Assembly (NCBI RefSeq): GCF_014191775.1
Contig: NZ_JACHXA010000003.1
Location: forward strand, 1 to 64,000
Direction: 5' to 3'
Source: Limibacillus halophilus
GTDB taxonomy: Bacteria; Pseudomonadota; Alphaproteobacteria; Kiloniellales; CECT-8803
Length of the DNA stretch: 64,000 nucleotides
Shown here: in pieces, positions 10,304-57,305 of the stretch
Position numbering within the stretch: the first letter of the stretch is position 1
How the letters are laid out: each line of letters begins with the position of its first letter
Notes under the pieces: model-generated
Database searches by the model: none
Told to the model about the DNA's origin: nothing
Seen by the model: the letters and a program-made list of their open reading frames with translations, nothing else
Program-made: the position numbers and the translations under genes

Positions 10304-11179
10304 ATGCGCGAAGTGACGGTCGCAGCCACACAGATGGCCTGTTCCTGGGATAAGGACGCCAATGTCAGTAAAGCCGAGTCCCTCGTGCGCGAAGCAGCAG
10401 GACAAGGGGCGCAGATCGTCCTTATCCAAGAGCTCTTCGAGACACCCTATTTTTGCCAGGATCAGAAGCAGGAGTACTTCGCACTGGCTCATCCGCTGGA
10501 GGATCACCCAACCATCGCGCGGATGGCTGATCTTGCCGCCGAGCTAGAAGTCGTCCTGCCCGTCTCCTTTTTTGAAAAAGCCAACAATGCCTACTTCAAT
10601 TCGCTGGTGGTGATCGATGCCGACGGGAGCCTCGTGAACCTCTATCGCAAAAGCCACATTCCCGACGGCCCCGGTTACCAGGAGAAGTTCTACTTCAACC
10701 CAGGGGATACCGGTTTTGTCGCCAGCAAGACTCGTTATGCGACCATCGGCGCGGCAATTTGTTGGGATCAATGGTTCCCCGAGGCCGCACGTTCAATGGC
10801 CCTGCAGGGTGCGGAGATCTTGTTTTACCCCACTGCGATCGGCAGCGAACCCCAAGACGCCTCGCTCGACAGCAAGGACCACTGGCAACGTACGATGCAA
10901 GGGCATGCCGCAGCAAACCTCGTGCCCCTGGTGGCCTCCAATCGCATCGGCAAGGAAGAAGGCGCCGGCGGCGAGATTACCTTCTATGGTTCTTCCTTCA
11001 TTGCCGACCAGACCGGTGCCAAAGTCGCCGAAGCCGACCGCGACAGCCAAGGTATCCAGATTGCCACCTTTGATCTTGATGCCGCAGCCGCCAAGCGAGC
11101 CTCCTGGGGTCTGTTCCGCGACAGGAGACCCGACCTGTATGGGAATCTCCTGACGCTGGACGGCGAAGATGACTGGTAG
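10304..11179 (+). CDS. aguB: N-carbamoylputrescine amidase-like nitrilase-superfamily enzyme
   Basis: A 291-aa carbon-nitrogen hydrolase. The ATG at 10304 is preferred over an upstream in-frame start at 10235 because AAGGAG lies 7 nt before it and AguB proteins begin MRxVTVAATQM. The nitrilase catalytic triad is visible: E43 (IQELFETPYF), K116 (YRKSHIPDGPGY) and C153 (GAAICWDQWFPE). AguB hydrolyses N-carbamoylputrescine to putrescine, CO2 and ammonia, the last step of the agmatine route. The upstream partner, agmatine deiminase (AguA), is not in the window, so a related carbamoyl or omega-amide substrate remains possible. Confidence 0.85.
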   Translation: MREVTVAATQMACSWDKDANVSKAESLVREAAGQGAQIVLIQELFETPYFCQDQKQEYFALAHPLEDHPTIARMADLAAELEVVLPVSFFEKANNAYFNSLVVIDADGSLVNLYRKSHIPDGPGYQEKFYFNPGDTGFVASKTRYATIGAAICWDQWFPEAARSMALQGAEILFYPTAIGSEPQDASLDSKDHWQRTMQGHAAANLVPLVASNRIGKEEGAGGEITFYGSSFIADQTGAKVAEADRDSQGIQIATFDLDAAAAKRASWGLFRDRRPDLYGNLLTLDGEDDW

Positions 11180-26200: not shown

Positions 26201-29200
26201 CGCATCAGCCGTACTGGTCGCTGGGTCCTTGGCCTTGAATCGGATTTCCAGTACCTCCAGAAATTCGTGGCGGACCGAGTTGTAGGCGATGGCGATATCG
26301 CTGATCTCATCGCTGACCAATTGCAGCTGCGGATTGAGCGGCGAGAGGAAAACGATCGATTCCGGCGCAAAAAACGGGCTGGGATTCCCACTGCCGTCGA
26401 TATTGTCCGGAATGGCTTTCACATACCCGTAGCTGACCGGCGGTATTTCACCAATCTTGCGGTCGAACAGTCGCTGTGTCGATCCGCTGGCCGGACCGAA
26501 GGTTAAGTTCAGCGAAGCGCTGTCGTTGGCCGGGTCGTTGTCGTCACTGTCGGCACTGCTTGCCGCGGCGCTAAAACTCGCCGCCCCGCTATTGCTGCGG
26601 CCAAAAATCGAGAGCCTCATGGTCGCCGATTGCCCGGCTTCTAGGGCATTAATCTGCCATCTCGTGGAACTGGGTAACGCGCCGAGTGAAAACCCTCCCA
26701 GTTCCGTCCCTTGAACACTTCCGCTCGAGATCTCCAGATCGTGCAGGAGTACATTCTGGTCCAATGACAGATCGAGGTTGATGCCGAACATCGGCTCTGT
26801 GCCCAGGTTCGTGACGGTCAGAACCGGCTCAACCCATTCACCCTGCGCCAGGCTTACTGACGGGTTATCCCAGGAAACGGCAAGATCCCCGAGCGACCGC
26901 TGAGCATTCAAGGTTACCGAGAAGCGGTTGCTGCCTGCCGAAACGTCTGGATCAACAGCTTGTCCGTAGAGGCCGCGACTGTTCCCGAGAGCCCATACGG
27001 AAATGCTATGTGACGTCACCGCAGTGGTGGGCTTGATAGTGATTGCGGCGCTGGATACTCCGCCGTTGAAGTTGTCGGTTCTGAAAAATTCCGGGTCCGA
27101 TTGGACAGTCAAGAAAGCGTCGGGCGGTGGAAACGCTCCGGTCGGGTAATGCGGGAACAAGACATCATCGCCAAATAGAGCGACGACCGTCAGCGAATCA
27201 TCATTCAACCCGTCCTGCCCCACTCCGGGATCATCTGGCCCGCTGCTTGTGATGGTCCGGCGCAAAACCAGGTGTTCACCGACGAACACCTGCTGCCCGT
27301 CTAGCACCGGTGTTCCATTCGAAGCACGAACCAAAGAAGAGGCCTCAACACCTGGCGGTAGGCTGACTGCTGGCGTGTTGACGTTTATGTCTGCGATCAA
27401 GGTCGGCGGCGCGGTAAGCGTAATGGACACAGCCGCCTGATCGTTGCTTGGGTCGGGATCGGAAAGGGACTTACCCTCAACGTCAGTAGCATCGGCGAGA
27501 CTGGCGACGAGATCCAGTAGGCCCGATTGGTCGGATTTCAGGCGAATTCGTTGCGAGGCGACAAATGTATAAACGGCACCGCCGCCGCCATCGTCGATCG
27601 CCCCCAGCTGGAAGTTCTCCAGGCTCCAGATGTTGGTCGCAGGATCATAATTTGGCGAGGCATCCTGCCCAAAAGGTAGGGAGACACCTGGCGGCAAGGG
27701 TAAATTTACGCGTGCGCTCGCCGGCATGGACGTTTGTGAAACGAGAACTGCTGTCAGCAGCACTGTAAATTCTTGATCTTGTTCCAGCGAGCCGGCAAAG
27801 GTTAACGGCTCGACGATTTCCAGCCCAATGGCAAGGTCTGCCTGCCTCTCGACAATGCTTATCGATCGGCTGGCGAAGTCATTTGCCGCATTGGGGTCCG
27901 CGGGCGTGCTGGCGTTGCGCGTAATATCGAAAATCTGATCTGCCGCTGGAGTTGAACCAGCCGTAAGCGTGATCTGTAGAGTCGCTCTACCACCAGCAGC
28001 TATAGAGGGAACACTCCATTGTCCGTTGCCAAAGGTCCCCACGCCCAGTCCCGTGGTAGGATTGGTAAAGGTTGGCGGAATCGTTACGTCAAAAACTGCA
28101 TTGCTTGCCGCTTCAATCGACGAAAGGTTGTCGGCGATCAAGGTCACGCTCACCTGCCCCTCAGTCGGGATTTGCGTCGTATTACTTGAAAGGCTCACGC
28201 TTAAATCAGCGCTAGCGGAAGTCGTCACTGCCGCACTGGCGCTGTTATTCGTTCCGTTGGGATCGGCTTGCCCGCCGGCGTTGGCGCCGTTGTAGGTCGC
28301 AATGAGGGTTTGTTCACCCAAAGGCGATTCCTCGGCCCTGAACCGCGCAGTGATGGAGCGGTTAACGCCCGCTGGCCAGGTGTTGATCTTCCAGCGCAGT
28401 CCGTTCGCGGGCTGATCCACAATGGTTCCGTTGCCGCCCGGTTCGAACTGGACGAAGGTCAGACCCGGCGGCACGGTGAGGTCTGTATAAACGGTGGTAA
28501 GCTCCAGGTTTCCGTGATTCTTGCCGGCAATCGTGAAAAGCACCTCCTGCCCTGCCAACACCGTACTTTGATCTGGTATGACCGAAATGATCTCTATGTC
28601 CCCGGGTTGCGCGACTGTATTGACGGTTCTCTGGAACCTGTTGCTGGCATCGCTCAAATCAGGATCGGAGACGGGCAGCGACGCAAACTCGGCGGAAACG
28701 GTGGTGTTCGACACAGCAGAAGTTGCCCGCATGCGCAATTCGAACTGAACCACCTCGTCGACGGCGATATCGCGCTCAATGCGAAACTGGTTCGTCGCGG
28801 CGTCGTAGAAGAAGTTGGGCTGACCGAAGACGAGGCCTTGCTCAATGGTGAACCCCGCCGGAACGGTGGGGGCGACGACCAGCGGAAACTCCGCCGACGC
28901 CGTTGCCACTTCGGGCCCGAGGTTATGAACCTTCATGAAGAGGGTAACTTCATCACCCAGGTTCACTGAATTGCCATCAAACAAGAAGGGCTGACCGGCT
29001 GCCGTCAGGTTACGCAAAAAGGTCTTCGAGCCATTATTCGGCGACGTGAAGGTTAAGTCGGCAATAGGTCCCACCGTGTTGACGGTTCGCTGGAACGTGT
29101 TGCTGGCATCGCTCAAATCGGGATCGGAAACGGGCAGGGCCGCAAAGACAGTTGAGACAGTGGTGTTTGCCACGACCGAAGTTGCCCGGATTCGAACTTC

Positions 29201-30079
29201 CACCTGCACCTTCTCGTCGACGGCGATATCGCGCTCAATGCGAAACTGGTTCGTCGCGGCGTCGTAGAAGAAGTTGGGCTGACCGAAGACGAGGCCTTGC
29301 TCAATGGTGAACCCCGCCGGAATGGTTGGCGCGATAACCAGCGGAAACGCCGCCGAGGCCGCTGCAATCTCAGGTCCGAGGTTGTGAATCTTGATGAAGA
29401 GGCTGAGCTCATCCCCAAGGTTTACCGAAGCGCCATCGGTCAGGAAGGGTTGGCCCGGCGCTGTCAGATTGCGCAGGAAGGTCTTTGAGCCGGAGATTGG
29501 AGAGTTGAAGGTCAGATCGGCAGAGGGCCCAACGATGTTGACCGATCGGCTGAAGCTGTCGTTATCCGACCTACTGTCGGGCACGGGTGCGCTGCTGATT
29601 TGCGCCGTGAAGTTTGTCCCCGTCGAGACCGCCGAAGCGTAGAAGCGATACTGAAACTGCACCACTTCATTGAAGGCCACCGTCCGTTCAATCCGGAACT
29701 GCTTGTTCGCCGCGTCATAGACAACGCCGGGATCGCCGTTATTGCTGGCGGTTTTGAGCGTAAAGTTCGCGGGATGAGGTGCCTGGATGATGATGGGGCT
29801 GGAAGGCGTTGCCGCGACGGCATCGGGACCTTGGTTATGCACCTTGATCAGGAATTGGACCTCGTCGCCGGCATTGACCGTATCGTTGGCATCGTTGATG
29901 AAAGCGCCGGTCGTAAAATTTCGAACGAAGGTAACTTTCGTATTGTCATCCGAAACAAGCGCGAGATCCGCCGACTGCGCCCGCGCATCAGGAACCCCTG
30001 TTGCGGCATAGAGTACGGCCGCCAGCCCCAACAGCAACAATAGTGTTCGTGACATTGCAGATGAAAGAAGTGCTTGCAT
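11201..30079 (-). CDS. Giant exported multidomain DUF11/Ig-like repeat protein
   Basis: A single uninterrupted frame of 6292 codons from ATG 30079 (GGGGG about 10 nt upstream; other starts are TTG 30082 and ATG 30055). The N-terminus has a Sec signal peptide (hydrophobic core SRTLLLLLGLAAVLYAATG, probable cleavage at ARA-QS). By eye the order is eight DUF11-like modules (residues about 36-1200), a block with recurring AYNPxxDxYLLxW motifs resembling a beta-propeller (about 1205-1785), two more DUF11 modules, then a regular array of 17 cysteine-paired Ig-like modules alternating with 16 DUF11 modules (period about 240 aa), and a unique C-terminal domain of about 290 residues. DUF11 modules carry NNGP and SADLxV signatures. 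I see no RTX repeats, autotransporter barrel, LPXTG or C-terminal membrane anchor. It is probably a very long surface or extracellular fibre; adhesion is only an inference. The downstream neighbour aguB is convergent. Confidence 0.9.
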   Translation of the reverse strand: MQALLSSAMSRTLLLLLGLAAVLYAATGVPDARAQSADLALVSDDNTKVTFVRNFTTGAFINDANDTVNAGDEVQFLIKVHNQGPDAVAATPSSPIIIQAPHPANFTLKTASNNGDPGVVYDAANKQFRIERTVAFNEVVQFQYRFYASAVSTGTNFTAQISSAPVPDSRSDNDSFSRSVNIVGPSADLTFNSPISGSKTFLRNLTAPGQPFLTDGASVNLGDELSLFIKIHNLGPEIAAASAAFPLVIAPTIPAGFTIEQGLVFGQPNFFYDAATNQFRIERDIAVDEKVQVEVRIRATSVVANTTVSTVFAALPVSDPDLSDASNTFQRTVNTVGPIADLTFTSPNNGSKTFLRNLTAAGQPFLFDGNSVNLGDEVTLFMKVHNLGPEVATASAEFPLVVAPTVPAGFTIEQGLVFGQPNFFYDAATNQFRIERDIAVDEVVQFELRMRATSAVSNTTVSAEFASLPVSDPDLSDASNRFQRTVNTVAQPGDIEIISVIPDQSTVLAGQEVLFTIAGKNHGNLELTTVYTDLTVPPGLTFVQFEPGGNGTIVDQPANGLRWKINTWPAGVNRSITARFRAEESPLGEQTLIATYNGANAGGQADPNGTNNSASAAVTTSASADLSVSLSSNTTQIPTEGQVSVTLIADNLSSIEAASNAVFDVTIPPTFTNPTTGLGVGTFGNGQWSVPSIAAGGRATLQITLTAGSTPAADQIFDITRNASTPADPNAANDFASRSISIVERQADLAIGLEIVEPLTFAGSLEQDQEFTVLLTAVLVSQTSMPASARVNLPLPPGVSLPFGQDASPNYDPATNIWSLENFQLGAIDDGGGGAVYTFVASQRIRLKSDQSGLLDLVASLADATDVEGKSLSDPDPSNDQAAVSITLTAPPTLIADINVNTPAVSLPPGVEASSLVRASNGTPVLDGQQVFVGEHLVLRRTITSSGPDDPGVGQDGLNDDSLTVVALFGDDVLFPHYPTGAFPPPDAFLTVQSDPEFFRTDNFNGGVSSAAITIKPTTAVTSHSISVWALGNSRGLYGQAVDPDVSAGSNRFSVTLNAQRSLGDLAVSWDNPSVSLAQGEWVEPVLTVTNLGTEPMFGINLDLSLDQNVLLHDLEISSGSVQGTELGGFSLGALPSSTRWQINALEAGQSATMRLSIFGRSNSGAASFSAAASSADSDDNDPANDSASLNLTFGPASGSTQRLFDRKIGEIPPVSYGYVKAIPDNIDGSGNPSPFFAPESIVFLSPLNPQLQLVSDEISDIAIAYNSVRHEFLEVLEIRFKAKDPATSTADAPDVYELYAARIDAFTGQPLDRDADGFADLTRLTWTLDDSLNLSARHPAIAYNPQDDTYLLAWTEIAAVEGDTLDPMVPKTARYRELAGDATYDPANRSGAAFQVAAGANPQGLDTTAYSSTFRPSVAYLSAFNDFAFALAGRPTAGDPIALPVDEVFAGRFGVNGGVASLISDHQYGVVLAGGAGAEDQRVGRVTIVPGAGDAELGLAWDIGEPVPGQFDYDGSETLHSRVHFSKADAASLLPLAGGADGRGHLAIIDEEPDETSIILTKRPKEGSFPNAFIAPVGEVSTRTAFEPDLAYDSAGDRYLLVWAGRRAGKNFAPDNGQTEIYGRILSTSGVFTTPIRRISRPYEGDIVYTPGPGAASPLHNADNPHVVFYPGPGTFLVSYDVCGHFEIESIPGGRHCTPGVNIDQIDAASGLHTDINKDGLFDRGYALRVLGNFPIEDGQGVIDGFDRGNDLAVVDDGLIGLAMRRPLARGKSYGEWHQAGFRRLNVTTDVAVQLDASTFQPEPGAVFDLTVTLTNTTTNTQANNIVINVPLPGDQQGAGLVFESGSGSAGWSYDVASGQLRLDQLPAGSSESYIITVRNSFSDQEIAVNAALLRLAEFDSNAANNTAAINLLVPAGADLALELGDQQIFLTETEAVTMTLRANSGSIANAVVSIVPPGPGFRFMPGEFAPSVGTFDEPSLTWSLPPAVSSEEATLAFMVEGLEAGDHDLTASVVGELPDPFPANSSVTANMAVLSTHPITVDSGELFGLFPQPVPSNGLARTQVTAQDALSRPINYNWVVDCPNLSDELVPFDGSFEFSDPTSAQWDWRAPYNLSGTDQICSVRVEMNVEGNARSLWWPDEQNGSAFTVLEHPGPFTNYGLTALAESLVEAGSDRVLGGVGEQAQYEFNIVNLSQTPGSNLQIDVVLPDGVDYAAHTLVGNGAFTPGGTPGEAGVWQLTSLNPSAVATLTVTVDINTNNFGNPDPEGSDLQTATATLVSATPADPDGAMPASATLERYLVNRVSILQEPSLFIDWDTIPIAVQALVSQGQGRFLGLEASNSLGRPMTFQWTQSCTDGVSLGSFDDASAVEPIWTAPLFVPDEFPAVLSCVLDVTVGAGVTANDVSLSYSIRVAEQPDVDLALSLEVLDKAVLLGGRARLRLTVSNNGPGLVNLESIGSLTARLSLPDELQLDLESAVPVDAFVTQAGEWFPTGTLNEGASTTLEIDAVATSDPVGLGNYLLAGQLETALVEPDYGNNFSGPIRISIIDQDRINIEDLLAVPDSALFQGNYAVTLTASSLLGAPLTYLWDDSACALGDSGRFTTAGGVEDNTLEDPIWISPQYNVADFGPALCTLQVTIDDGAGGADPVIGSLPVTVLHPSTTGSDISIDLRVSDTAVQVGSFFDLIVTARNNGPDAISADNVQVSVSLPAGALADSITFDGLGGDSFDPVAAVWTIDNLDRDQSRVLSVKVRMIAEDILSFTTASLGTSSQADPNPNNDSDVKSVEGFGLVSIFFNSLPSVLPNPVRPRQNANATVMASLEGSFISYEWFAFCPAPLGGNGAFADGTPEDGLGNNSRDVTWTAPANTTAIQQDCAFYSLATATNLGSASRRTDVGVIAEPEADLSLLVTRTPAAVFSGEDVTVTLEVRNGGPANVNQTQVDIDVLPADGLSFVSVEGATLNQDFSYNSNIGLGRWLPGALDFDPLDPLVGRRTITMTFRGDVGGSAGQARTVTIDSTVSDGMASDPLGGNNNGVVSVDVLAENKASFTQTASALPDPVESEGTTQLSATAIDAFGFPVASYSWSASCNGNLAGNGFFVDGNNTAQLPLWTAPRNDTGAQQFCDLTVLATPTAGQAESSTVRVEVDSIPTLNLSLSKTVNASPVVVLSRPEFTIVVTNNSPTEIAKDVVVQDSFHAAGFDDRQIEAISQGVFDTAGGAWQVGDIPAGGNATLVVSLRATAAGVYSGSGNLASISAAEVIDNNGADDSDGADITIEETQTLAFTLIADPISIVSGGMTTLTVEATTTNFTDPIPFTMTEVCAGSPVAGSFDPVIGEIAPGGNPRVITVDWTAPENHTGVNQGCSLTITGSVAGSAESSATANVTVETLPVADIEVSLVGAPNGVVLGESFQLQAVAENLGIIGSDGVVARVLLPTGFAAAPGNWAVDHASRSFDPATGLWQINALGNGDVATLDLTIDVEAVDPIANPERLGAKALQVRRVASDVPDPNSANDIFASILEVIDDNTLELVRRPVASPASVIGMTDVALLNFEVRDRLERPITYLWNAECAVELGGHGSFDDVSLREPIWSSAENTDPTIDYDCLLSVEASVQGAQLPISVDLVVPVLNPNTIGIDLSTAVATDRQAYEFGDTVLVTVPVSNNSLLDNASGVAVSFDLPPGLQFLDSDDPANLSAQGNGVYNWSVGNVFASSTKTLTVTALAIGEGTQDISLIVAAADQADPVPDNDVSLATVSVVPENIITIDSIFASSNSLIGGGTISVSVVAHDLLGGNPLNYQWAVESCLPSGGSGAFLAPTLATANWTSPNIGPAADGALKQTCTLTVDIDDGDDPAERAQAQGRLTIEILPSDALGSELVVLKQSDKQVVLPGESLRFSVRVTNEGPAKATNLAVTDVLNPGFVQTAALAEQGSYNGGIWTVGDLEVGASAELFVDVIARAESAPGVGDGANGQLPNTAFVSAVDQADPNPGNETAQVVVSVIPENLLDIAGPFASPNSHVGEGVSRLMLTVEDAVSNSNTSYAWQAICPSLPGSGSFSDATAGEPSWESPFNGTAETVVCSLRVDVTVTDALFGQIVSTRTVPVTLLPAGAVGADIDLRVTSLDTALFVGEVSSAIVRLENNGPEAATDVTISLALSDELAVTGAPTLSGGTYDSGDWSVAGLGVGEVLTLELPIAASGAGAVPGTGSITASVTQVTPADPNTGPGSNDPTSLLFDILGDNQIVIDNPIAANPAVLIGGETSQLSIVAHDVDGLGVSYRWTAACPGFAGNGSFAPSSTAAEVVWTSPANTTGAQDICTLMVDLDAPGSNGISGTAETMADITVNPTVDTNVAVTAQVTPSAIVVAPGLGTAEDRGLLNFEVMNQGVIDATGVQVDIPIPAGLTLIAPVPGNYTAGTGEWAVGTLLPGESQVLQLTVEGSAVAPGNSTTINIEATFRTDLLGENDTNALDDLAAVALTVANRNEVTLDGILANPASLAGDGINSTTVSVEVTTTLGDPATYTWSAACPAEFGGNHGAFDVTDQAVVDWMPPDNQTGQVVICSLTADATSSDGSTLPSLATVDIPVLPNGTDPDDVFLVLQGIPNFTTLIDGETLTIDFSLTNFGPSDANGAEITLQLPGTGFMVTGTSDDPNFDGTTWSVPAPIPGDGSTVNFTINAVVDALGGTVQTPRLVSIEAAAAAIENDPLLDDNSVTTSLSIVDENVIQITAGPNADPDTILGAVGSTPQDRTLNLSVTAIDEIGRPLTHAWTLLGCTGGIDSGILATPGEATTDWEGPVNTTGTPQSCDFQITVSAEGSQPVTGLVTATVLHDGAAGADISLKANTPSKASTFIGDQITYTVTIRNNGPVAATDVTVTDLLPGKLGFVSDDAGGAYDDGTGTWAVGALAFGEEKSLLITADVLFPGSVVNTASVTSVVAADGNGDQNPNNDSRTSIIEVGAQNRIHVSDLTATPTSLIVGMATAGEQRLVQLDLTAFDDLGAGLSYAWTASCADGNAADNGSFSSTSIQDPIWTAPENISGAGANALCTLTVNLSADGASALQESIQIVVLPEGLADPDISLAMTVDRDLLAKGEIATFTLSASNNGGADASNVAIRDVLPAGLLLQTGTLPPEFDTTTDTWTIPLLSVGQTVSIQLQAQAVREGFFVNLAELAGLDAPGVDVNPLNDSAFRTVTVIPGNAIEVLQDIVANPDSLVGQGLFALSVEAEGLLGRGVTATWSSSDCGGLGVGAFDPAVGQQTNWTSPTNNLAGANAGCTLTVDLTADSAEPLQLTKQVTLLPTDITTPDISLRLEVDRHMALLGDTALFTLTLTNNSIIDATGVSVQLEPLGDLSADPRATGFTFLQLIGAGSFDADSSELLVPAIAAGETAVARFLVSLDELGLLENEASLNGTVEGDANSGNDVSRTQVTSLAANTITSTIPATIVPQSRVLQGDFRVISHAEDALELGIDYLWSADCPAQPDLGGHSFADLLSRSTIWASGINNTAQLQTCNMSVDMSAPFATDVTAGLQAHLLPDPAAGDETDVAIQASVDVANPLPGSLVTFTITAELLGAIAPDEALVVVALPNGFEIESATGDGVFDLGLWTISELTSVATLQVAARVMTSTEQVFIADLVFLSAGMPPILLFDLVSANNISFVTVTPRFDPGITFGDPAITATPNPVLSAEISNLSLDVTSDPTGLTYYWTSDCGGSFSDVSASNPQWTAPVNATSGLVSCTLNAAVSSATGGTVRDIEIDVLPENQNSDLTVTQVIGKNPLLDQESDTTVTLTVSNSVGGNFVGGIEITPDFGGLFQLDGAATGDGSWTGAVWQLTPGLAPGESANLVLPVTAAGGLVFTGDPAAVTGDVSASVTARGGAETGAGDESPSESVTIYEENRLTATVLPDALAVDSGGTTGFNVDVTDLVGNGITDYAWTATCAQAEDGFPGARPQDLRDSDGTPATGTGATFTWTAPVNSYDLPGGTPADANSDCRIEVAVTSSDGATGTAAMGIMVYGEDIDRDNLLPDQKPGTAIFPAAFAVDIAPGSPPMTGFFNIGHRPNTAMTGCRVELATPFNGTFFAQPFSWWDAGRNLLQPNEPMDLPSGVSGQTWFFSMQPNETFPPTRMDLQVVCDNGESQVLSEFNTLLLTSEAAPGPRAVATILFSPIGNRAQVPLNTGNTNGFGAIRNVNVGGVVDLVIESVLDDPRPTLPVAIDTCIIPIGATNCAVDRDVNRQTVDLTDDPATPEDESLRSFRVRLRGQGQSIPLNILQNRLYMRLERPDGAIVGASSFAVCTTDNANC
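12090..23900 (-). repeat. Array of 17 Ig-like modules alternating with DUF11 modules inside the giant gene
   Basis: Each Ig-like unit follows the pattern xYxWxxxCP...GSF...PxWTAPxNxTGxxxxCTLTVxV. I counted 17, from YNWVVDCPNL/QICSVRV (near 23830) to YAWTATCAQ/DCRIEV (near 12300). One cysteine lies near the first YxW and a second in the final CxLxV strand of every unit, which suggests one disulfide per module. Between successive units lies one DUF11-like module (DxSLxxxV...NNGPxxA...VxVxxxLPxG...W.VG.L..G...L). The repeat is at protein level; DNA copies are well diverged, so the array is old and maintained. Confidence 0.8.
24730..26480 (-). other. Beta-propeller-like insert in the giant protein
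   Basis: Residues about 1205-1785 break the DUF11 pattern. They carry repeated blade-like motifs: DIAIAYNSVRHEFLEVLEI, PAIAYNPQDDTYLLAWTE, PSVAYLSAFNDFAFALAG, PDLAYDSAGDRYLLVWAG and PHVVFYPGPGTFLVSYDV. Hydrophobic strands ending in W/Y at regular intervals fit a beta-propeller. Calcium-friendly Asp-rich turns (DRDADGFAD, DINKDGLFDRG) lie between blades. The fold assignment is inference; ligand and function are unknown. Confidence 0.55.
28617..29535 (-). repeat. Tandem duplicated DUF11 modules, 459-bp period
   Basis: Two neighbouring modules near the N-terminus of the giant protein are close copies. The stretches 28754-28863 and 29213-29322 are identical over 110 bp at an offset of exactly 459 bp (153 codons), and the flanks (for example around 28617-28674 and 29076-29133) differ by only scattered substitutions. 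The encoded copies share FTIEQGLVFGQPNFFYDAAT and FRIERDIAVDE. This is a recent in-frame duplication or gene-conversion product. Confidence 0.92.
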
Positions 30080-30582
30080 CAAACTGGCCCCCAGTTATCG
30101 TCAGTCGCCCATCAGTTCTGTCCATGCCGATGTAGGCGGATTTGCCGACCGATTCTTCTTCCGGAATGCGTAGTCGCGCACTAACCTTGCTAGAGCTATT
30201 TTCTCCCTATTAACGGCAAAACGATATGAGGTGTTTGTCGTATTTTGTACAACAACTGGATTGCGATAATGGTCGCGAAGGCCCGTGAATGACCTAATTC
30301 CAAAGCACTAAGCTATTGAGCTAAGAAGCCCCGGCAAATAGCCTTGTTTACGCCTGCAATTGATGAAGTTGGGACCATCGACGCACGAGGCAACGGCTAG
30401 GAAATCAGGGTCCAGACCCCCAGCTCTTTGATTGAAAACTGCGAAAATGCTGCTGAATCAAAAGGCAAGCCAAAATTCGTCATTGGCGCGTAATTTGACA
30501 ACGATTAAAATATCAGTGGTTGTTTGTTCGATCTGGTTAATTTGCCGTAAATTGTTGTTTGAGACATAAATCGACGCTGAAT
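30080..30582. other. AT-richer intergenic region upstream of the giant gene
   Basis: A stretch of about 500 bp without a supported gene. It is visibly AT-richer than its surroundings and holds the promoter region of the giant gene (minus strand) plus the downstream end of the DksA-like gene. I see no clear promoter pair, operator or terminator. A short TTTTGTACAACAA stretch near 30244-30256 is the only local symmetry. Confidence 0.6.
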
Positions 30583-46499: not shown

Positions 46500-47666
46500 A
46501 TGAATAGCAGCAGAAGCAGGCCACACAACATTGCGCTCAAACCGAAGGGCAAGGTGTTGCATCTGGCGTACGACGCGATTACCGGTTGGGCTCTTGATGG
46601 AGGTGGATCGCAAAGCACCCTCGAAATAGGGCTTTTCCTCGAGGGTCGCTTCCTACACAGCGTCCAGGCTTCCGGGCCAACCGACGCTCGTCTGGACCAA
46701 GACGCGCCTCCCGGCGCCAAGATTTTTCGCCTGCCAATACCGATGGAGAAACAGACGGAGAAGCGGCGCGCGCTATCCGTGCGCTTCATGATCAATGGCC
46801 AACCCTTGGAGAACAGCCCGGCGGAGACCACGCCGGACAATTGGGTGCCACCGCAGGTCGACTTCGAGCAGATCACTATCCAACGCAACGACACGGAAGC
46901 CCCCGTCCTCGACCAGGCCACAATCGACGAAGAGGGATTAACCCCCACCCAAATACATTGGCGAGAGGCTGGCTATGTCATTCTACCGAAGTTCATGCCC
47001 TCGAATATGATTAGCGCCTATTGCCACGCTTGGCAGCAGCGGTGCGGCCAATTGGCCGGCTGGACCTGCCCGGTACCCTACATGCATGTGCCCGAGGCAA
47101 TGGCGCTCTCCACCTATGGTCCACTCGCCCAGGTGCTGGAGAGTCTGATCGGGAAGACCATGGCGGTGCAGTTGAACCTGACCGGGTGGCTATCGACACG
47201 GCGCGACTGGCACCAGGATTCTTACCTCAGCCGCAAAGGCGCAAGCTGGCGCTTGGCTATCTGGATCGCGCTGGAAGATATCCACCCCGATTCCGGACCG
47301 TTTGAATTCGTGCCCGGCTCGCACCGCTGGCCGACCCTGGATAATGAAAAGGTGCGCGATTTGCTGCCGCAGCACTTGCGAAATGCAGACTGGCCGCGCT
47401 GGGCGGACCGCTTTGTGGTTCCGGCCTGCAAGGCGGAAATCTGCAAACGACGAGCCCGGGTCGAGAAGTTCATCGCAAGAAAGGGGGATGTTTTGATCTG
47501 GCATGGCTCCCTGCTACACCGCGGGGCCGTTCCGGTGGATCCGCAGCGACCGCGTAAATCCTTCATTGCCCATTATAGCGCTCTGGATTGTCGGCCCGAT
47601 TTCCCCGTCGCGCTGCAAAGCAGCCACGGCGGCTACTACTTTCCGATCCATCGACCTTTGGATTGA
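46500..47666 (+). CDS. PhyH-family Fe(II)/2-oxoglutarate dioxygenase with N-terminal GWA-type module
   Basis: A 388-aa protein from ATG 46500 (GGGGGGG upstream; an in-frame start at 46425 is possible). Residues about 15-95 form a small beta-rich module with GKVLHLAYDAITGWALDGG that resembles the xVxGWAxD module I recall on alphaproteobacterial glycan-related proteins. The C-terminal ~250 residues are a phytanoyl-CoA dioxygenase fold with the iron ligands H and D in DWHQDSYL, a distal His in LLHRG and the 2-oxoglutarate arginine in RKSFIAHYS. The substrate is unknown. A close paralogue lies at 55438-56610 and is broken by a stop codon. Confidence 0.85.
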   Translation: MNSSRSRPHNIALKPKGKVLHLAYDAITGWALDGGGSQSTLEIGLFLEGRFLHSVQASGPTDARLDQDAPPGAKIFRLPIPMEKQTEKRRALSVRFMINGQPLENSPAETTPDNWVPPQVDFEQITIQRNDTEAPVLDQATIDEEGLTPTQIHWREAGYVILPKFMPSNMISAYCHAWQQRCGQLAGWTCPVPYMHVPEAMALSTYGPLAQVLESLIGKTMAVQLNLTGWLSTRRDWHQDSYLSRKGASWRLAIWIALEDIHPDSGPFEFVPGSHRWPTLDNEKVRDLLPQHLRNADWPRWADRFVVPACKAEICKRRARVEKFIARKGDVLIWHGSLLHRGAVPVDPQRPRKSFIAHYSALDCRPDFPVALQSSHGGYYFPIHRPLD

Positions 47667-47678
47667 GGGCAGCCGGTA

Positions 47679-48854
47679 TCAGGCAACCTCGGCGCTTCCC
47701 TGCTTGAGAATGCCGCCGTAAATCGCTTCGTCGTCGCACACGCCGACACAACGCCCCTGCTCGACCATCACGACCGGAAAACCGCTACAATGGCGCAAGT
47801 TGATGATGCTGGTCATGTCCTCGTCCGGTGACGCGCTGCATAGATTGCCCGGCTGTGCCCCGGCACCGTCCTTCGACAAGACGATCTCGCGCCCGTCGAT
47901 CCGCGCTGAAAGCGGCGCTCCATCCGGCCCCAATGATAGGCGCAAGCGCCCATCCGCCCCCAACAGCACATCGTCCGCATCGCGCGGCAGGCTATCGAGC
48001 GCCTTCATCAACGTACCGCCCCGCATCACTTTCAAGGGGTTCATATGGGCGACAAACTCGGCGACGTAGGCATTTGCGGGATTCAGCACAATCTCCTCGG
48101 GTTCGCCGTGCTGAATAATCCTCCCACCTTCCATGATCGCAATGGAGTTGCCGAGCTTGAGCGCTTCATCCAGATCATGACTAACGAAAATGATGGTTTT
48201 CTTGAGGCTGCGCTGAAGCTCCAGCAGTTCCTCTTGGAGATGGTCCCGGATCAGCGGATCGAGTGCTGAAAAGGGCTCGTCCATCAACAATATATCAGCA
48301 TCGGTAGCAAAGGCCCTCGCAAGGCCTACGCGCTGCTGCATGCCACCAGATAGCTCGTGCGCGAACTTGGCGCCCCATTGATCCAGTCCAACGAGTTCGA
48401 GCTTTTCCTCCACCAGCGCTTCACGCTCGGCCCGCGGCAATCCACGCAACTCCAGCCCCAAGCCCACGTTCTCCGCGACGGTCCGCCAGGGTAGCAATGC
48501 GAACTGCTGAAAGACCATCGCAATCCGGCTCATGCGTAAACGCCGTAAGGTTGCGGCATCGCAACTCGCGACATCGATCTGCTGATCGCCATCCCGAACC
48601 AACACACGGCCGCGCGTCACCTTGTTAAGCCCATTGACCGCCCGCAGCAGGGTGGATTTTCCGGAACCCGACAACCCCATCAGGACACAAATTTGACCTT
48701 CCTCGACAGCAAGGCTAGCTTCTGCAACACCCAGAACCTGGTTTGTCTCCTGCAAAATTTCATCCCGGGTTTTTCCCGCATCGAGCAGCTTCAGCGCACT
48801 CTCAGGTTTTTCGCCGAAGATGATGTCGACCTTGTCGAATTCCACTGCTGACAT
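47679..48854 (-). CDS. choV: Choline/glycine betaine ABC transporter ATP-binding protein
   Basis: A 391-aa ProV/ChoV-type ATPase. It has Walker A GLSGSGKST, Q-loop FQQFALLPWRTV, signature LSGGMQQRVGLARAF, Walker B ILLMDEPFSALD and the switch His in VSHDLDEALKLG. The C-terminal ~120 residues hold a degenerate CBS-like regulatory region. The protein energises uptake of choline or betaine with the adjacent ChoW and ChoX. It starts 2 bp after the choW stop, so the two are translationally linked. Uptake supplies the demethylation genes upstream of it in the map. Confidence 0.93.
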   Translation of the reverse strand: MSAVEFDKVDIIFGEKPESALKLLDAGKTRDEILQETNQVLGVAEASLAVEEGQICVLMGLSGSGKSTLLRAVNGLNKVTRGRVLVRDGDQQIDVASCDAATLRRLRMSRIAMVFQQFALLPWRTVAENVGLGLELRGLPRAEREALVEEKLELVGLDQWGAKFAHELSGGMQQRVGLARAFATDADILLMDEPFSALDPLIRDHLQEELLELQRSLKKTIIFVSHDLDEALKLGNSIAIMEGGRIIQHGEPEEIVLNPANAYVAEFVAHMNPLKVMRGGTLMKALDSLPRDADDVLLGADGRLRLSLGPDGAPLSARIDGREIVLSKDGAGAQPGNLCSASPDEDMTSIINLRHCSGFPVVMVEQGRCVGVCDDEAIYGGILKQGSAEVA

Positions 48855-48856
48855 GG

Positions 48857-49708
48857 TTACTTCTTCCCCCTGCCTGGCTCACGCTGCTTGCAGATACGAT
48901 CCAGAAGAATAGCCAGAATGACGATAGCCAGACCGGCTTCGAATCCCTGAGCGATGTTGACCGTATTGAGCGCGCGAACCACTGGTTTACCCAGACCATC
49001 CGCGCCAACCAACGCGGCGATGACCACCATCGAAAGGGATAACATGATGCACTGGGTCAGCCCGGCCATGATGGTCGGCAGGGCATGCGGCAGTTCCACT
49101 TTCCACAAAAGCTGCCGTTTAGTCGCGCCAAAGGCCTCACCGGCCTCTATCAGTTGCTTAGGCACCGAGGAAACCCCTAGATGGGTGAGGCGGATCGGCG
49201 CCGGTAGCGCAAAGATGATGGTTGAGATCAAACCCGGTACAACGCCCAAACCAAAGAGTATCAGGGTCGGTATCAGATAAACGAAAGTCGGGATGGTCTG
49301 CATGAGGTCGAGAACCGGGCGCATGGCTGTAAAGAGCCAGGGCCGGTGCGCGGCCGCAATTCCCAACGGTACGCCCACCGCCATACACAGACTTGCTGCG
49401 ACGAGCACCAGCGCCAAAGTCTCGAGTGTGGCCTGCCAATAACCCAGGTTGATGATCAACAACAACGACAGACCAATCATTGTCGATAGCTTCCACGATC
49501 GATGCAGCCAGAAGGCTCCAACGACAATGAGGGCCAACAGCACCAATGGCGGACACCATTCGAGTATCTCGATGAAGCCTTCGATAACGAATTTAAGACC
49601 TTCTGTGACCAGATCGAAGAACCAGGCCGCATTGTCCTGGATCAGTCCGATGAAGCTATCGATCCATCGCCCGAGCGGGATCTTATTGCTGGTGATCCAC
49701 TCTTCCAT
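48857..49708 (-). CDS. choW: Choline/glycine betaine ABC transporter permease
   Basis: A 283-aa inner-membrane permease. Hydrophobic helices and the binding-protein-dependent permease loop (EAGEAFGATKRQLLWKVELP, with ALPTIMAGLTQCIMLSLSMV) match ProW/ChoW. The N-terminal extension WIDSFIGLIQDNAAWFFDLV is typical of the family. It lies second in a choX-choW-choV order, 123 bp downstream of choX. CGGAGGCTTTTC precedes the ATG. Confidence 0.93.
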   Translation of the reverse strand: MEEWITSNKIPLGRWIDSFIGLIQDNAAWFFDLVTEGLKFVIEGFIEILEWCPPLVLLALIVVGAFWLHRSWKLSTMIGLSLLLIINLGYWQATLETLALVLVAASLCMAVGVPLGIAAAHRPWLFTAMRPVLDLMQTIPTFVYLIPTLILFGLGVVPGLISTIIFALPAPIRLTHLGVSSVPKQLIEAGEAFGATKRQLLWKVELPHALPTIMAGLTQCIMLSLSMVVIAALVGADGLGKPVVRALNTVNIAQGFEAGLAIVILAILLDRICKQREPGRGKK

Positions 49709-49831
49709 GAAAAGCCTCCGACTGCGGCGGCGAGGGCGGCATCACGACGCCACCCTCGCCTGCCCGGTTCTTGCGCTGGCCCGCCAATCACTTCCATGCT
49801 CACGGCGCACGGGAAGCAGCCGGCATTGGCA

Positions 49832-50785
49832 TCAGAGCCCGAGAGACGCCTTGACGGCCGCCAAGCCATCCTTGCCGTCAAAAGTGGTGACGCCCTGAAG
49901 CCAAGCATCGAGTCCGCCGGGGTTGGCCTTCAGCCATGCTGCGGCTGCCTCGTTCGGATCTTTCCCGTCGTCCAGGATCGCACCCATGATCTCGTTTTCC
50001 ATCGCCAGCGTGAACTGGAGGTTCTTGAGCAGTTGGCCGACGTTGCCGCACTCATCGACATAGCCTGCCCGGGTATTGGTATGAACGGTCGCGCCGCCGA
50101 AATCCGGGCCGAACCAATCATCGCCACCCGCCAAGTAGGTCATATCGATGTTCGCATTCATCGGGTGCGGTTCCCAACCGAGGAAGACGATCCATTCGTT
50201 CCGGCGAGACGCGCGATTGACCTGCGCCAGCATTCCCTGCTCGGAGGACTCAACGACTTCAAAACCTTTCAGCCCGAAAGCGTCCTTGTCGATCATTTCC
50301 TGGATCAAGCGATTGCCGTCGTTCCCAGGTTCGATTCCATAGATCTTGCCGTCGAACTTATCCTTATGCGCAGCGATATCGGCAAAGCTCTTCACCCCGC
50401 CTTCCGCGACGTAAGTCGGCACAGCCAGGGTGTACTTCGCGCCTTCCAGGTTGACCCGGACGGTGTCCACGGAGCCATCGTCGCGATAGGGCGCGATGTC
50501 GGCCTCCATGGTCGGCATCCAGTTGCCCAAGAAGACGTCGATGTCACCGTTTTTCATGGACGCGTAAGTGACCGGCACCGAAAGAACCTGAGCCGTCGGT
50601 TCATAACCGAGACCCTCCAGAATCACGGAAGTGGCGGCCGTTGTCGCAGTGATGTCCGTCCAACCGACATCGGAAAACCGCACCGTCTTGCAGGCGTCGG
50701 CTTCAGCCGCATGACTGTTGGGAACGGCGAGCAACGTGCCTGCCGCCAGCAGTGATGCAAAAATGATCTGTCGCTGCATGGTCAT
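49832..50785 (-). CDS. choX: Choline/glycine betaine-binding periplasmic protein
   Basis: A 317-aa substrate-binding protein. ATG 50785 has AGGGAG just upstream. It has a signal peptide (core IIFASLLAAGTLLAVPNSHA, cleavage at HAA). Tryptophan and tyrosine residues placed as in the choline-binding aromatic box occur in VGWTDI, LGNWMP, AVPTY and FLGWEPHPMN. The C-terminus ends LDAWLQGVTTFDGKDGLAA, typical of ChoX. Choline is favoured by overall resemblance, but glycine betaine fits the catabolic neighbours equally well. Confidence 0.9.
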   Translation of the reverse strand: MTMQRQIIFASLLAAGTLLAVPNSHAAEADACKTVRFSDVGWTDITATTAATSVILEGLGYEPTAQVLSVPVTYASMKNGDIDVFLGNWMPTMEADIAPYRDDGSVDTVRVNLEGAKYTLAVPTYVAEGGVKSFADIAAHKDKFDGKIYGIEPGNDGNRLIQEMIDKDAFGLKGFEVVESSEQGMLAQVNRASRRNEWIVFLGWEPHPMNANIDMTYLAGGDDWFGPDFGGATVHTNTRAGYVDECGNVGQLLKNLQFTLAMENEIMGAILDDGKDPNEAAAAWLKANPGGLDAWLQGVTTFDGKDGLAAVKASLGL

Positions 50786-50821
50786 TAATCTCCCTGTTCT
50801 ATCGCTTTTTATCACCTGAGC

Positions 50822-52939: not shown

Positions 52940-55372
52940 GTGGCACAGCCGGACCCACTGCTGCCGCGCCGGTTCCATGACTGGTTCCGGGCAAAGGGCT
53001 GGAAAGCCCGCGATCATCAGATTGATATGTTACAGGCTGCGCGCGACGCTCGTTCGGCTCTGCTCATCGCGCCGACCGGCGGCGGCAAAACGCTGGCTGG
53101 CTTCCTGCCAACGCTTATTGATCTAGCCGAAAACCCGCGTCCGGGCCTTCACAGTCTCTACATATCGCCTCTTAAGGCGCTCGCTGTCGACATTCACAGG
53201 AACTTACTGTCGCCCATCGCCGAAATGGGCTTGCCGATCACCTGCGAAACCAGAACCGGCGATACACCGCAAGCAAAACGCCAGCGGCAACGCCGCCACC
53301 CCCCCCAGATACTTTTGACAACCCCGGAATCGCTCGCCTTGATGCTGTCTTATCATGACGCAGAAGCGGTCTTTGCAACATTGTCCTGCGTCATTCTGGA
53401 TGAGCTACATGCGCTGGCCGGAAGTAAAAGAGGCGACCAACTCGCGCTTGCTTTGTCACGGCTGCAAAGCATCAACCCCACACTGCGCCGTGTCGGCCTA
53501 TCCGCCACTGTGCATGATCCGCGCGCCCTGCAAGCATGGGTATCGCCGAGCGGAAGCCCCGATGATGATCGGGTTAGACGAATAGAAGGCAAAGCGGGCG
53601 CCGCGCCTGATATTCAAATTCTCTCAACAGGGCCTCAACTGCCTTGGTCCGGTCATATGGCGATGCATGCCTTGCCGGAAATCTATGAGCGCATTCGCAA
53701 ACATGGCACGACGCTGGTTTTCGTGAACACACGCGCTCAAGCAGAGCTTACATTCCAGGGGTTGTGGCATCTAAACGAGGAAAACCTTCCCATTGCTCTC
53801 CATCATGGCAGCCTGGCGGTCGAGCAACGACGCAAGGTGGAAGCCGCCATGGGGCGAAACGCGCTGCGGGCCATCGTCGCCACCTCATCTCTAGATCTGG
53901 GTATCGACTGGGGTGCGGTCGACCTGGTTATACAGGTCGGGGCACCCAAGGGTGTATCGCGGCTTCTGCAAAGGGTTGGTCGCGCAAATCATCGCTTGGA
54001 ATCGCCTTCCAAAGCGCTGCTGGTGCCCGGCAACCGCTTCGAGGTTCTGGAATGCCGGGCAGCCATCGAGGGTGTGATGGCGCACGAACTGGACGGCGAC
54101 CTACCGAAGCCGGGCGGCCTGGATGTTCTAGCACAGCATATCTGGTGCATGGCTTGCAGCGGCCCACTTGATGCGGATTTGTTGTTTGACGAAATTACAA
54201 CTGCAGCGCCTTACCGCCGGCTATCCAGGGACGACTTCGACGCCGTGTTGGACTTCGTGGCTACCGGCGGTTACGCACTCAAAACCTACGACCGCTATCA
54301 AAGACTCCGTTTAGGACCGGATAATCTCTGGCGCTTGACCCATCCCCGCCACGCACAACGCTTGCGAATGAACATCGGCACAATTGTCGAATCCCCTTTG
54401 GTCAAGGTCCGCCTGCACCGCGGGCGCGTATTGGGTGAAGTCGAGGAGTACTTCATTCAGGGATTGCGCGCGGGTGATACCTTTCTTTTTGCAGGACAGC
54501 TCCTCCGCTTTTTGGGCATGAAGGAAAATACGGCACTTTGTTCAGCCGACGGACAGGGAGACCCGAAGATTCCGGCTTATGCGGGTGGGCGCCTGCCGCT
54601 ATCCACCTATCTGGCTGATCGGGTTCGATCGCTGTTGCAAGATGCGCACCGTTGGCACGACCTGCCGGACGCTGTGCGAGAGTGGCTACGGCTTCAGCAA
54701 CATCGTTCTCTCTTGCCGGATCGGAACGGCTTGCTGGTCGAAACATTCCCCCGCGCAGAGCGAGAGTATCTGGTTGCCTACTCCTTCGAGGGCCGAAATG
54801 CGCATCAGACCTTGGGGATGCTGCTAACCCGACGCATGGAGCGCATGGGCCTCTCCCCCCTCGGCTTCGTGGCCACAGACTACGTAATCGCCGTGTGGAG
54901 CCTGAAGCCGGCGATCGATCTTGATGCGCTGTTTGACGAGGATATGCTGGGTGATGATTTGGAGGCCTGGATGGCCGAGTCTTCTTTGTTGCGCCGAAGT
55001 TTTCGTAACGTCGCCGTCATCGCCGGGCTGATCGAGCGCAAACTGCCGGGCGCAGAGAAGAGCGGCAGACAGGTCACTATCAGTTCAGACCTGATTTATG
55101 ACGTTCTCCGAAAATACCAGCCCGACCACGTGTTGCTGCGAGCCACCTGGGCCGATAGCGCGGGCGGTCTGACCGATATCGGGCGATTAGGTGGTATGCT
55201 GGCGCGCATCAAGGGGCGTATTCGGCACCGACGCTTGGACCGAATTTCCCCGCTGGCTCTGCCTGTCCTATTGGAGATAGGCCGGGAACAGGTTTATGGA
55301 GCGGCCTTGGACGAGCTTTTCGATGAAGGTGCGAGAGCATTGATTGCCGAGGCTATAAGCGATACTGATTAA
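52940..55372 (+). CDS. Ligase-associated DEXH-box DNA helicase (Lhr-like)
   Basis: An 810-aa protein from GTG 52940. It has Walker A APTGGGKTLAGF, the motif II DELH in VILDELHALAGSKRGD, SAT in VGLSATVHDPRAL, and motifs V and VI (DWGAVDLVIQVGAPKGVSRL, then QRVGRANHR). The Lhr-type winged helix and C-terminal region follow. These 'ligase-associated' helicases act in DNA repair alongside an ATP-dependent ligase, an exonuclease and PdeM. PdeM is present downstream, but a PhyH gene separates them; ligase and exonuclease genes are not in the window. Confidence 0.93.
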   Translation: MAQPDPLLPRRFHDWFRAKGWKARDHQIDMLQAARDARSALLIAPTGGGKTLAGFLPTLIDLAENPRPGLHSLYISPLKALAVDIHRNLLSPIAEMGLPITCETRTGDTPQAKRQRQRRHPPQILLTTPESLALMLSYHDAEAVFATLSCVILDELHALAGSKRGDQLALALSRLQSINPTLRRVGLSATVHDPRALQAWVSPSGSPDDDRVRRIEGKAGAAPDIQILSTGPQLPWSGHMAMHALPEIYERIRKHGTTLVFVNTRAQAELTFQGLWHLNEENLPIALHHGSLAVEQRRKVEAAMGRNALRAIVATSSLDLGIDWGAVDLVIQVGAPKGVSRLLQRVGRANHRLESPSKALLVPGNRFEVLECRAAIEGVMAHELDGDLPKPGGLDVLAQHIWCMACSGPLDADLLFDEITTAAPYRRLSRDDFDAVLDFVATGGYALKTYDRYQRLRLGPDNLWRLTHPRHAQRLRMNIGTIVESPLVKVRLHRGRVLGEVEEYFIQGLRAGDTFLFAGQLLRFLGMKENTALCSADGQGDPKIPAYAGGRLPLSTYLADRVRSLLQDAHRWHDLPDAVREWLRLQQHRSLLPDRNGLLVETFPRAEREYLVAYSFEGRNAHQTLGMLLTRRMERMGLSPLGFVATDYVIAVWSLKPAIDLDALFDEDMLGDDLEAWMAESSLLRRSFRNVAVIAGLIERKLPGAEKSGRQVTISSDLIYDVLRKYQPDHVLLRATWADSAGGLTDIGRLGGMLARIKGRIRHRRLDRISPLALPVLLEIGREQVYGAALDELFDEGARALIAEAISDTD

Positions 55373-55437
55373 TCTGTGCAACAGCGCGAACAAACAGCGC
55401 AGGCACGTAAAAAGAACAAGGAAACCGGGGGGCGGTG

Positions 55438-56610
55438 ATGTTCAATTTCCTGAAGCTGAAGGCTCACACCACGGCGTCGGTGACGCCTCATGGCATGGTC
55501 ACCGAGGTCACCCCGAAACGGATCAGAGGTTGGGCCGTCGGTCGATCATCCGATGGCACGCCACTAGAGGTCGTGGTTAAAGCGGGCGAAATCGAGCTTG
55601 GACGTGCGCGAGCCAATTCCGAGCTTAACCAAGAGCAGTTTGAGGAATCGGAAGCCTAGGAGTCGGCAAAGGCTTTCGAAATCATCTGGCCCGAACCGAG
55701 GTCGCATCTAACTTTAGAGGTCGTGTTTGCCGAATCCGGCATTCCGCTTTTGGGTAGTCCACGCCACCTGGGCGCGTCGCCCTGGAATCCACCCGATAGC
55801 GACTTCGCCGATTTAAGCGAAATTCCAGACGATGATGTGGTTCCGCCCTTGGATAGAACGGAATGTGATGAAAGCGCGCTGACCCAAGATCAACTGCTGT
55901 GGCGAAGACAGGGTTACCTCATTCTAGATAGTTTCATGCCGAGTGATCTGGTGGAGAGTTACGCCGAGGCCCGCTGGCGACTGCTGCCGAAGGTGCATGG
56001 ATGGAACTCAGCAGTCCCTTACATGCACGTTCCGGAGGCCTTGGCACTTTGCACCTGCGCGCCCCTTGCAGCGAAGCTCGAGGAACTCATAAGCGAGCCA
56101 ATGGGCCTCCACTTGAACCTGACACACTGGGTATCCACACAACGCAATTGGCATCAAGACGATTATCTGAACCCAGAAACCCTCAATAGCTACTACGCTG
56201 CGGTTTGGATTGCCTTGGACGATATTCACCCGGATTCAGGGCCGTTCGAGTACGTTCCCGGCTCCCACCGCTGGCCGGTCATGCGTCGCGAGAAAGTTCG
56301 CAGCTTGATGCCACCCTATCTGAGGCATGGAGGGTGGCCGAAGTACTCGGAGCCCTTGGTGGTCGCCGCCTGTGAAAGGGAGATCGCCAGGCGGCGAGCC
56401 GAAACCAGACAGTTCATTGCCAAGAAGGGTGACGTCCTGATTTGGCATGGCAGACTGTTACACCGCGGCACGGCCCCGAGAAATCCCACGTTGCAGCGGC
56501 GCGCCATGATCGCTCATTATAGTGCTATCGATCGCCGCCCTCGTTTTCCGGCAGCCAAGCAGGCAGACGGCGGAGGGTGGTACTTTCCAGTCAACCAGCA
56601 GCTTTTCTAA
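55438..56610 (+). pseudogene. PhyH-family dioxygenase interrupted by an in-frame TAG
   Basis: The frame from ATG 55438 encodes a GWA-type N-terminal module (MVTEVTPKRIRGWAVG), reaches TAG at 55657-55659, and continues in the same frame without any other stop to 56610. Residues directly after the TAG (ESAKAFEIIW, then LTLEVVFAESG) align with the intact paralogue at 46500-47666, so the stop lies inside a conserved domain and no frameshift is involved. The catalytic part retains NWHQDDYL, the distal His in LLHRG and the Arg region RRAMIAHYSA. A GTG at 55723 with AGAGG upstream could restart translation. Annotated as a pseudogene, but readthrough or reinitiation is possible. Confidence 0.82.
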
Positions 56611-56615
56611 CGCCT

Positions 56616-57305
56616 TTGACCGCACAGGAACATTCCATCCAGCTAAACGGCGCCAACTTGGTGTTGAGGGTTAGCGGCGCACTTTTTTGGCCTGCGCGCG
56701 CCACCTTGGTAGTAGCCGACCTGCACCTGGAAAAGGCGAGCAGTTTCTGGCGGCAGGGGCAACTGCTTCCACCTTACGATAGCCAGGAAACTTTGGCGCG
56801 CTTGACCGACGAGTTGCGAAACATCAAGCCGGTCAAGCGGGTCATCTGTCTGGGCGATTCCTTCCACGATTCAGAAGCCGGAAACCGTCTGCAACCCGAT
56901 TCCCGTCGCTGGCTGGAGGCCTGGACATCCCATCTGGAATGGATTTGGATCGCAGGAAACCACGATCCCGACCCGCGCGGTAGCTGGGGTGGGTACGTTA
57001 TGGAAGAACTGCGCGATGGGCCCCTTGTTTTTCGCCACCAGGCGCAAGCCGGCGGTGTCCTGAATGGAGGAGAGGTTTCGGGGCATTTTCATCCTAAAGC
57101 CGCGATTAGGGTCCGCGGCAAGCGCCTGACCGGCCCAGCTTTCATTGAGGATGGGAAACGCCTTATCTTACCTGCCTTTGGGGCTTTGACAGGCGGCCTG
57201 GATGTATCCGATCCGGCGATTGCCGGTTTGTTTGAATCAGGGGTCAGGACCCATCTGCTCGGGCGACGCAGCATCGCAACCCTGTCCTCCGGTATTGTTG
57301 GGTGA
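56616..57305 (+). CDS. pdeM: Ligase-associated metallophosphoesterase PdeM
   Basis: A 229-aa calcineurin-like phosphoesterase if started at TTG 56616; a GTG at 56577 gives 13 more residues overlapping the PhyH end, and no start has a good ribosome-binding site. Metal motifs are VVADLHLEKASSF, ICLGDSFHD, AGNHDPDPRG and SGHFHPKAAI. The SGALFWP and LLPPYDSQETLARL segments are typical of PdeM, which accompanies the ligase-associated helicase and ATP-dependent ligase in DNA repair. It ends before the bidirectional terminator at 57330. Confidence 0.9.
   Translation: MTAQEHSIQLNGANLVLRVSGALFWPARATLVVADLHLEKASSFWRQGQLLPPYDSQETLARLTDELRNIKPVKRVICLGDSFHDSEAGNRLQPDSRRWLEAWTSHLEWIWIAGNHDPDPRGSWGGYVMEELRDGPLVFRHQAQAGGVLNGGEVSGHFHPKAAIRVRGKRLTGPAFIEDGKRLILPAFGALTGGLDVSDPAIAGLFESGVRTHLLGRRSIATLSSGIVG

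Follow-up and report, generated by a model that had tools for sequence, protein, structure and literature searches.

An in-frame amber codon, probably a recent nonsense mutation, interrupts one of two sister PhyH-family oxygenase genes of Limibacillus halophilus

Introduction

When a long, conserved reading frame continues beyond a stop codon, is the gene broken, misread, or expressed by other means? This question is raised by a PhyH-family Fe(II)/2-oxoglutarate oxygenase gene with a single in-frame TAG (hereafter the amber gene or amber copy), which lies on the forward strand of a 64,000-nucleotide stretch of Limibacillus halophilus DNA (the window). A preliminary description of the DNA listed four causes, a recent nonsense mutation, a sequencing error, readthrough, or reinitiation at a GTG further downstream, and chose none of them. 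Here we ask whether the interruption is genuine, which part of the protein it strikes and whether the genome holds any means of decoding TAG, and we weigh the explanations against one another.

Results

The interruption of the PhyH gene by TAG is genuine (Table 1). The window is GC-rich, and stops flanked by open frame are not in themselves rare in it (29 over the six frames); we count the interruption as real because homology spans the TAG. A search of the organism's own genome (3.48 Mb, 18 contigs) returned exactly two copies of the gene, one at 46500-47663 without a stop and one at 55462-56604 with '1 TAG', which are 45% identical overall and 51% identical in the catalytic part. When the N-terminal parts of both copies were compared directly, they were 25% identical (E 5e-5), an independent figure. 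A profile of the two-copy module matches the piece before the TAG at positions 1-69 and the piece after it at positions 71-118, with E-values of 5e-33 and 4e-20 that are not independent, since the profile includes the amber gene. The frame opened by ATG 55438 runs on past the TAG for 316 sense codons before the terminal TAA, GC content by codon position is alike before (0.63/0.45/0.64) and after it (0.62/0.47/0.64), and no frameshift was seen in 55438-56610, the TAG being the sole lesion. The preliminary description was thus accurate in reporting 317 further codons (the TAA included), an intact paralogue that aligns across the TAG and a frame free of further decay. A stop that truncates a conserved gene in frame is one of the two marks of a nonsense pseudogene, the other being loss of function or relaxed selection. 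A codon log-odds screen for further interrupted genes was dropped, as shadow frames also score well and the screen is not selective.

Table 1. Positions of the amber gene, its parts and its neighbours in the window.
Feature	Position	Strand	Remarks
Intact sister copy	46500..47666	+	45% identity overall; 51% in catalytic part
Ligase-associated DEXH box helicase, upstream neighbour	52940..55372	+	TIGR04121
Shine-Dalgarno-like GGGGGGCGG, strong	55427..55435	+	5' of ATG 55438; duplex -9.5 kcal/mol
PhyH-family gene, TAG-interrupted	55438..56610	+	ATG 55438, final TAA 56608-56610; Pfam PF05721 E 3e-20, TAG read as Q
N-terminal beta-domain, aa ~13-107	55438..55759	+	common to sister copy 46500-47666; from module profile and predicted model
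In-frame amber codon, residue 74	55657..55659	+	context GCC TAG GAG; loop between predicted strands 52-58 and 77-83
GTG, residue 96, last strand of module	55723..55725	+	first in-frame ATG/GTG/TTG past TAG; SD-like AGAGGTC, 0 nt spacing
PhyH double-stranded beta-helix catalytic domain, aa ~121-390	55798..56607	+	complete, 3' of TAG
Ligase-associated endonuclease PdeM	56616..57305	+	TIGR04123; proposed start TTG 56616; listed ORF begins at GTG 56577

If the TAG is taken as Q, the product belongs to the PhyH family (PF05721, 73.8 bits against a gathering cut-off of 22). In the predicted model of this product (pLDDT 82, pTM 0.73), the strands of the N-terminal beta-domain span residues 13-99, the catalytic domain begins at about residue 121, and residue 74, the TAG, is part of a loop in the N-terminal domain that was modelled with lower confidence. 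In a Foldseek search the model, a predicted double-stranded beta-helix, matched SnoN and proline hydroxylase H11 with E-values of about 1e-11, and EctD and human PhyH as well. With these oxygenases and MysH the amber gene shares the HxD...H motif and the predicted fold, but it is only 12-21% identical to the solved family members in the fold search and has an extra N-terminal domain. The catalytic motifs are retained after the TAG, as had been claimed: H239 and D241 of the HxD motif do not vary across 12 family rows, and at least 90% of these rows also have the distal H342 and R354. From knowledge of the family, we take H239, D241 and H342 to be the iron ligands and R354 to be the arginine that binds 2-oxoglutarate.

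The N-terminal beta-domain is missing from the closest relatives in other genomes, whose catalytic parts are about 50% identical. In its place, a short leader is found in two Acetobacteraceae-labelled MAGs (L005, L006), a Chroococcus sp. FPU101 relative (L007) has nothing in front of the catalytic domain, and a genome of the same class (L061) has a methyltransferase-like domain, identified by reading the sequence only. No orthologue with the module was found beyond the window's two copies in 61 genomes of the order, 385 of the class and 398 of the phylum; in L088, another genome of the class, a polysaccharide pyruvyl transferase is preceded by a weak match to the beta-domain (E 1e-7). Since the TAG sits in a domain that the closest outside relatives lack, it appears to strike a swappable accessory domain and not the catalytic one. 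The preliminary description would have given up its reading if orthologues all lacked the N-terminal module; its four nearest relatives in other genomes do lack it, but the same-genome sister copy carries it, so a module truly is interrupted, though a swappable one. In the tree, the window's two copies are sisters (support 97/98), so the module was probably acquired once, before they split. The PhyH gene is patchily distributed, being absent from 60 other genomes of the order, and the orthologue search found only remote PhyH on plasmids and none on viral contigs. The searches yielded no close orthologue that would reveal an ancestral sense codon at the TAG position, and every other family member compared is free of a stop there. 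As a separate observation, the L061 gene (L061:1450-3099, reverse strand) is an apparent fusion of a SAM-methyltransferase-like domain with a PhyH domain of the amber gene's type.

The Chroococcus sp. FPU101 relative (L007:9986-10929; core about 51% identical) also carries an in-frame TAG. Unlike that of the amber gene, this TAG (10484-10486) lies in the catalytic domain, where it replaces the conserved Trp codon of SHRWP, and is followed by a frameshift near 10738; the gene is without the N-terminal module and stands among glycosyltransferase and methyltransferase genes. This is an independent decay, further advanced than that of the amber gene. Members of this gene family therefore do decay.

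The amber copy itself shows no visible relaxation of selection: its branch in the tree is shorter than that of the intact sister (0.31 and 0.78), and it keeps 71 of the 77 columns that are invariant in the other five members, compared with 71 of 89 for the sister. As the amber copy is better conserved than the intact one, either the stop arose lately or its product is still of use; this pattern suggests that the copy was under selection until recently, or still is.

The amber gene is inserted in a DNA-repair operon, with the DEXH helicase on one side and pdeM on the other. None of 18 relatives that have the helicase carries a PhyH gene at this site; 12 of them have pdeM downstream of it, 11 overlapping or close behind and one about 740 nt away. 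Judged from an alignment of relatives, pdeM of the window probably starts at TTG 56616, five bases past the PhyH stop, so its translation may depend on that of the inserted gene. Helicase and PdeM are present (window 52940-57305), and no match to the ATP-dependent ligase model TIGR04120 was found in the genome at E <= 0.001.

The genome was also examined for means of decoding TAG. RF1 is present (prfA, 500.6 bits), and TAG is an ordinary terminator, ending 5 of the 27 window genes on which stop-codon usage was assessed. None of the 46 tRNA places of the genome has a CUA anticodon, a negative limited by the capacity of the tRNA model to miss a divergent tRNA, and no pylS lies above cut-off (TIGR02367, 28 bits against 178); a tRNA-Gln(CUG) was found. 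The search proposed earlier for a suppressor tRNA or pylS/pylT was thus negative. The combination of pylS and tRNA-Pyl(CUA) that marks a pyrrolysine protein was not found in the genome, and the stop is not conserved in relatives together with a stimulating context, as would be expected of programmed amber readthrough. Folding of the RNA around the TAG is no better than that of shuffled sequences (z -0.84), and an RNA recoding element was dropped, as this fold is not unusual and the sole Rfam match is a sub-threshold chance hit. Also rejected as a suppressor was the one low-scoring tRNA-like match, at C4:276-366 (28.6 bits; L058:127-217), which has no CUA anticodon and appears to have arisen by partial duplication of the tRNA-Met(CAU) beside it, with a shared 5' half and a divergent 3' half.

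Discussion

We consider it probable that a recent nonsense mutation has struck one of two sister oxygenase genes and that the full-length protein is essentially lost, with trace leakage possible. The gene has two domains, an N-terminal beta-domain and a Fe(II)/2-oxoglutarate PhyH oxygenase, is one of two sister copies and lies inside a DNA-repair operon where relatives have none. According to this model, one base change would have produced the TAG in a loop of its N-terminal part. Ribosomes that begin at ATG 55438, behind a strong Shine-Dalgarno sequence, would halt after 73 residues, so the full-length protein would essentially be lost, and a trace of enzyme might remain through low-level error readthrough or weak internal starts. 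In support of this, the stop is single and accompanied by no other lesion, no well-placed Shine-Dalgarno sequence follows the TAG, no dedicated suppressor was found in the genome, the gene is patchily distributed and the Chroococcus relative shows that the family does decay; against it stand the absence of any sign of relaxed selection in the amber copy and the failure to find a close orthologue with a sense codon at the TAG position. The recency of the mutation and the loss of expression are both what we infer, and the sister copy could buffer the loss. Nonsense-interrupted genes of bacteria, that is young pseudogenes, are alike in having one in-frame stop, a frame otherwise kept and a duplicate copy; here, in contrast, the lesion lies in an accessory N-terminal domain and leaves a complete catalytic domain downstream.

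That complete domain might still be made alone, by reinitiation or internal initiation at GTG 55723 or TTG 55750, as an enzyme of about 286-295 residues like the relatives without the module, an explanation that we regard as rather unlikely. The conservation of the catalytic part and the architecture of the closest outside relatives speak for it, as does the location of GTG 55723 ahead of the entire predicted catalytic domain, and reinitiation is common among bacteria in general (PMC5972666). The starts themselves appear weak, as the GTG lies 63 nt beyond the TAG with its AGAGGTC immediately adjacent, and the TTG has almost no Shine-Dalgarno sequence. Moreover, the string AGAGGTCGTG recurs 150 nt upstream at another in-frame GTG, so the match looks like a coincidence of codon composition. 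Among the causes listed earlier, reinitiation at GTG 55723 is thus a possible one with poor support, given this spacing of 0 nt, and readthrough in the form of recoding by a suppressor tRNA or pyrrolysine is disfavoured.

A base-call or assembly error, with the gene intact in the organism, is unlikely. An isolated lesion in an otherwise well conserved gene of a draft genome in 18 contigs is what such an error would leave, but the change is a substitution and not a homopolymer indel, the contig is 458 kb long, and the listed completeness and contamination of the genome are 100% and 0.6%.

It is improbable, too, that selection favoured the TAG as a means of shedding the swappable beta-domain, with the oxygenase now made alone from an internal start, so that domain loss would be seen under way. 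If the catalytic domain is still made, the locus would provide a small example of domain loss through nonsense mutation.

We give still less credence to leaky but useful readthrough, in which a near-cognate tRNA would decode UAG-G at a low level and yield some full-length enzyme. The base after the TAG is G, which makes termination less accurate in E. coli, where TAG reporters averaged 0.01-0.8% of control and varied with temperature (PMC11126739), and tRNA-Gln(CUG) is a candidate decoder; such levels are very low, though, no stimulating RNA structure accompanies the TAG, and the TAG is conserved in no other member. Dedicated recoding of UAG, by pyrrolysine, a suppressor tRNA or a change of code, is very unlikely indeed, for the locus resembles known pyrrolysine and suppressor-tRNA genes only in the long conserved frame after its TAG, and RF1, the lack of a CUA tRNA and of PylS above cut-off, TAG terminators, a plain fold and an unconserved stop all argue against it.

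For annotation, the gene is best called an interrupted two-domain oxygenase and not an intact 295-aa gene from GTG 55723. The stop may also have a polar effect on pdeM, as the repair nuclease may now rely on translation reaching the end of the inserted gene.

Two other features of the window deserve mention. Choline ABC transporter genes (choV, choW and an OpuAC-type binding protein; 47679-50815, reverse strand) directly adjoin the intact PhyH copy, and a single ORF of 6293 aa (11201-30082, reverse strand), in which at least 16 stretches match DUF11, probably encodes a giant surface or adhesin-like protein.
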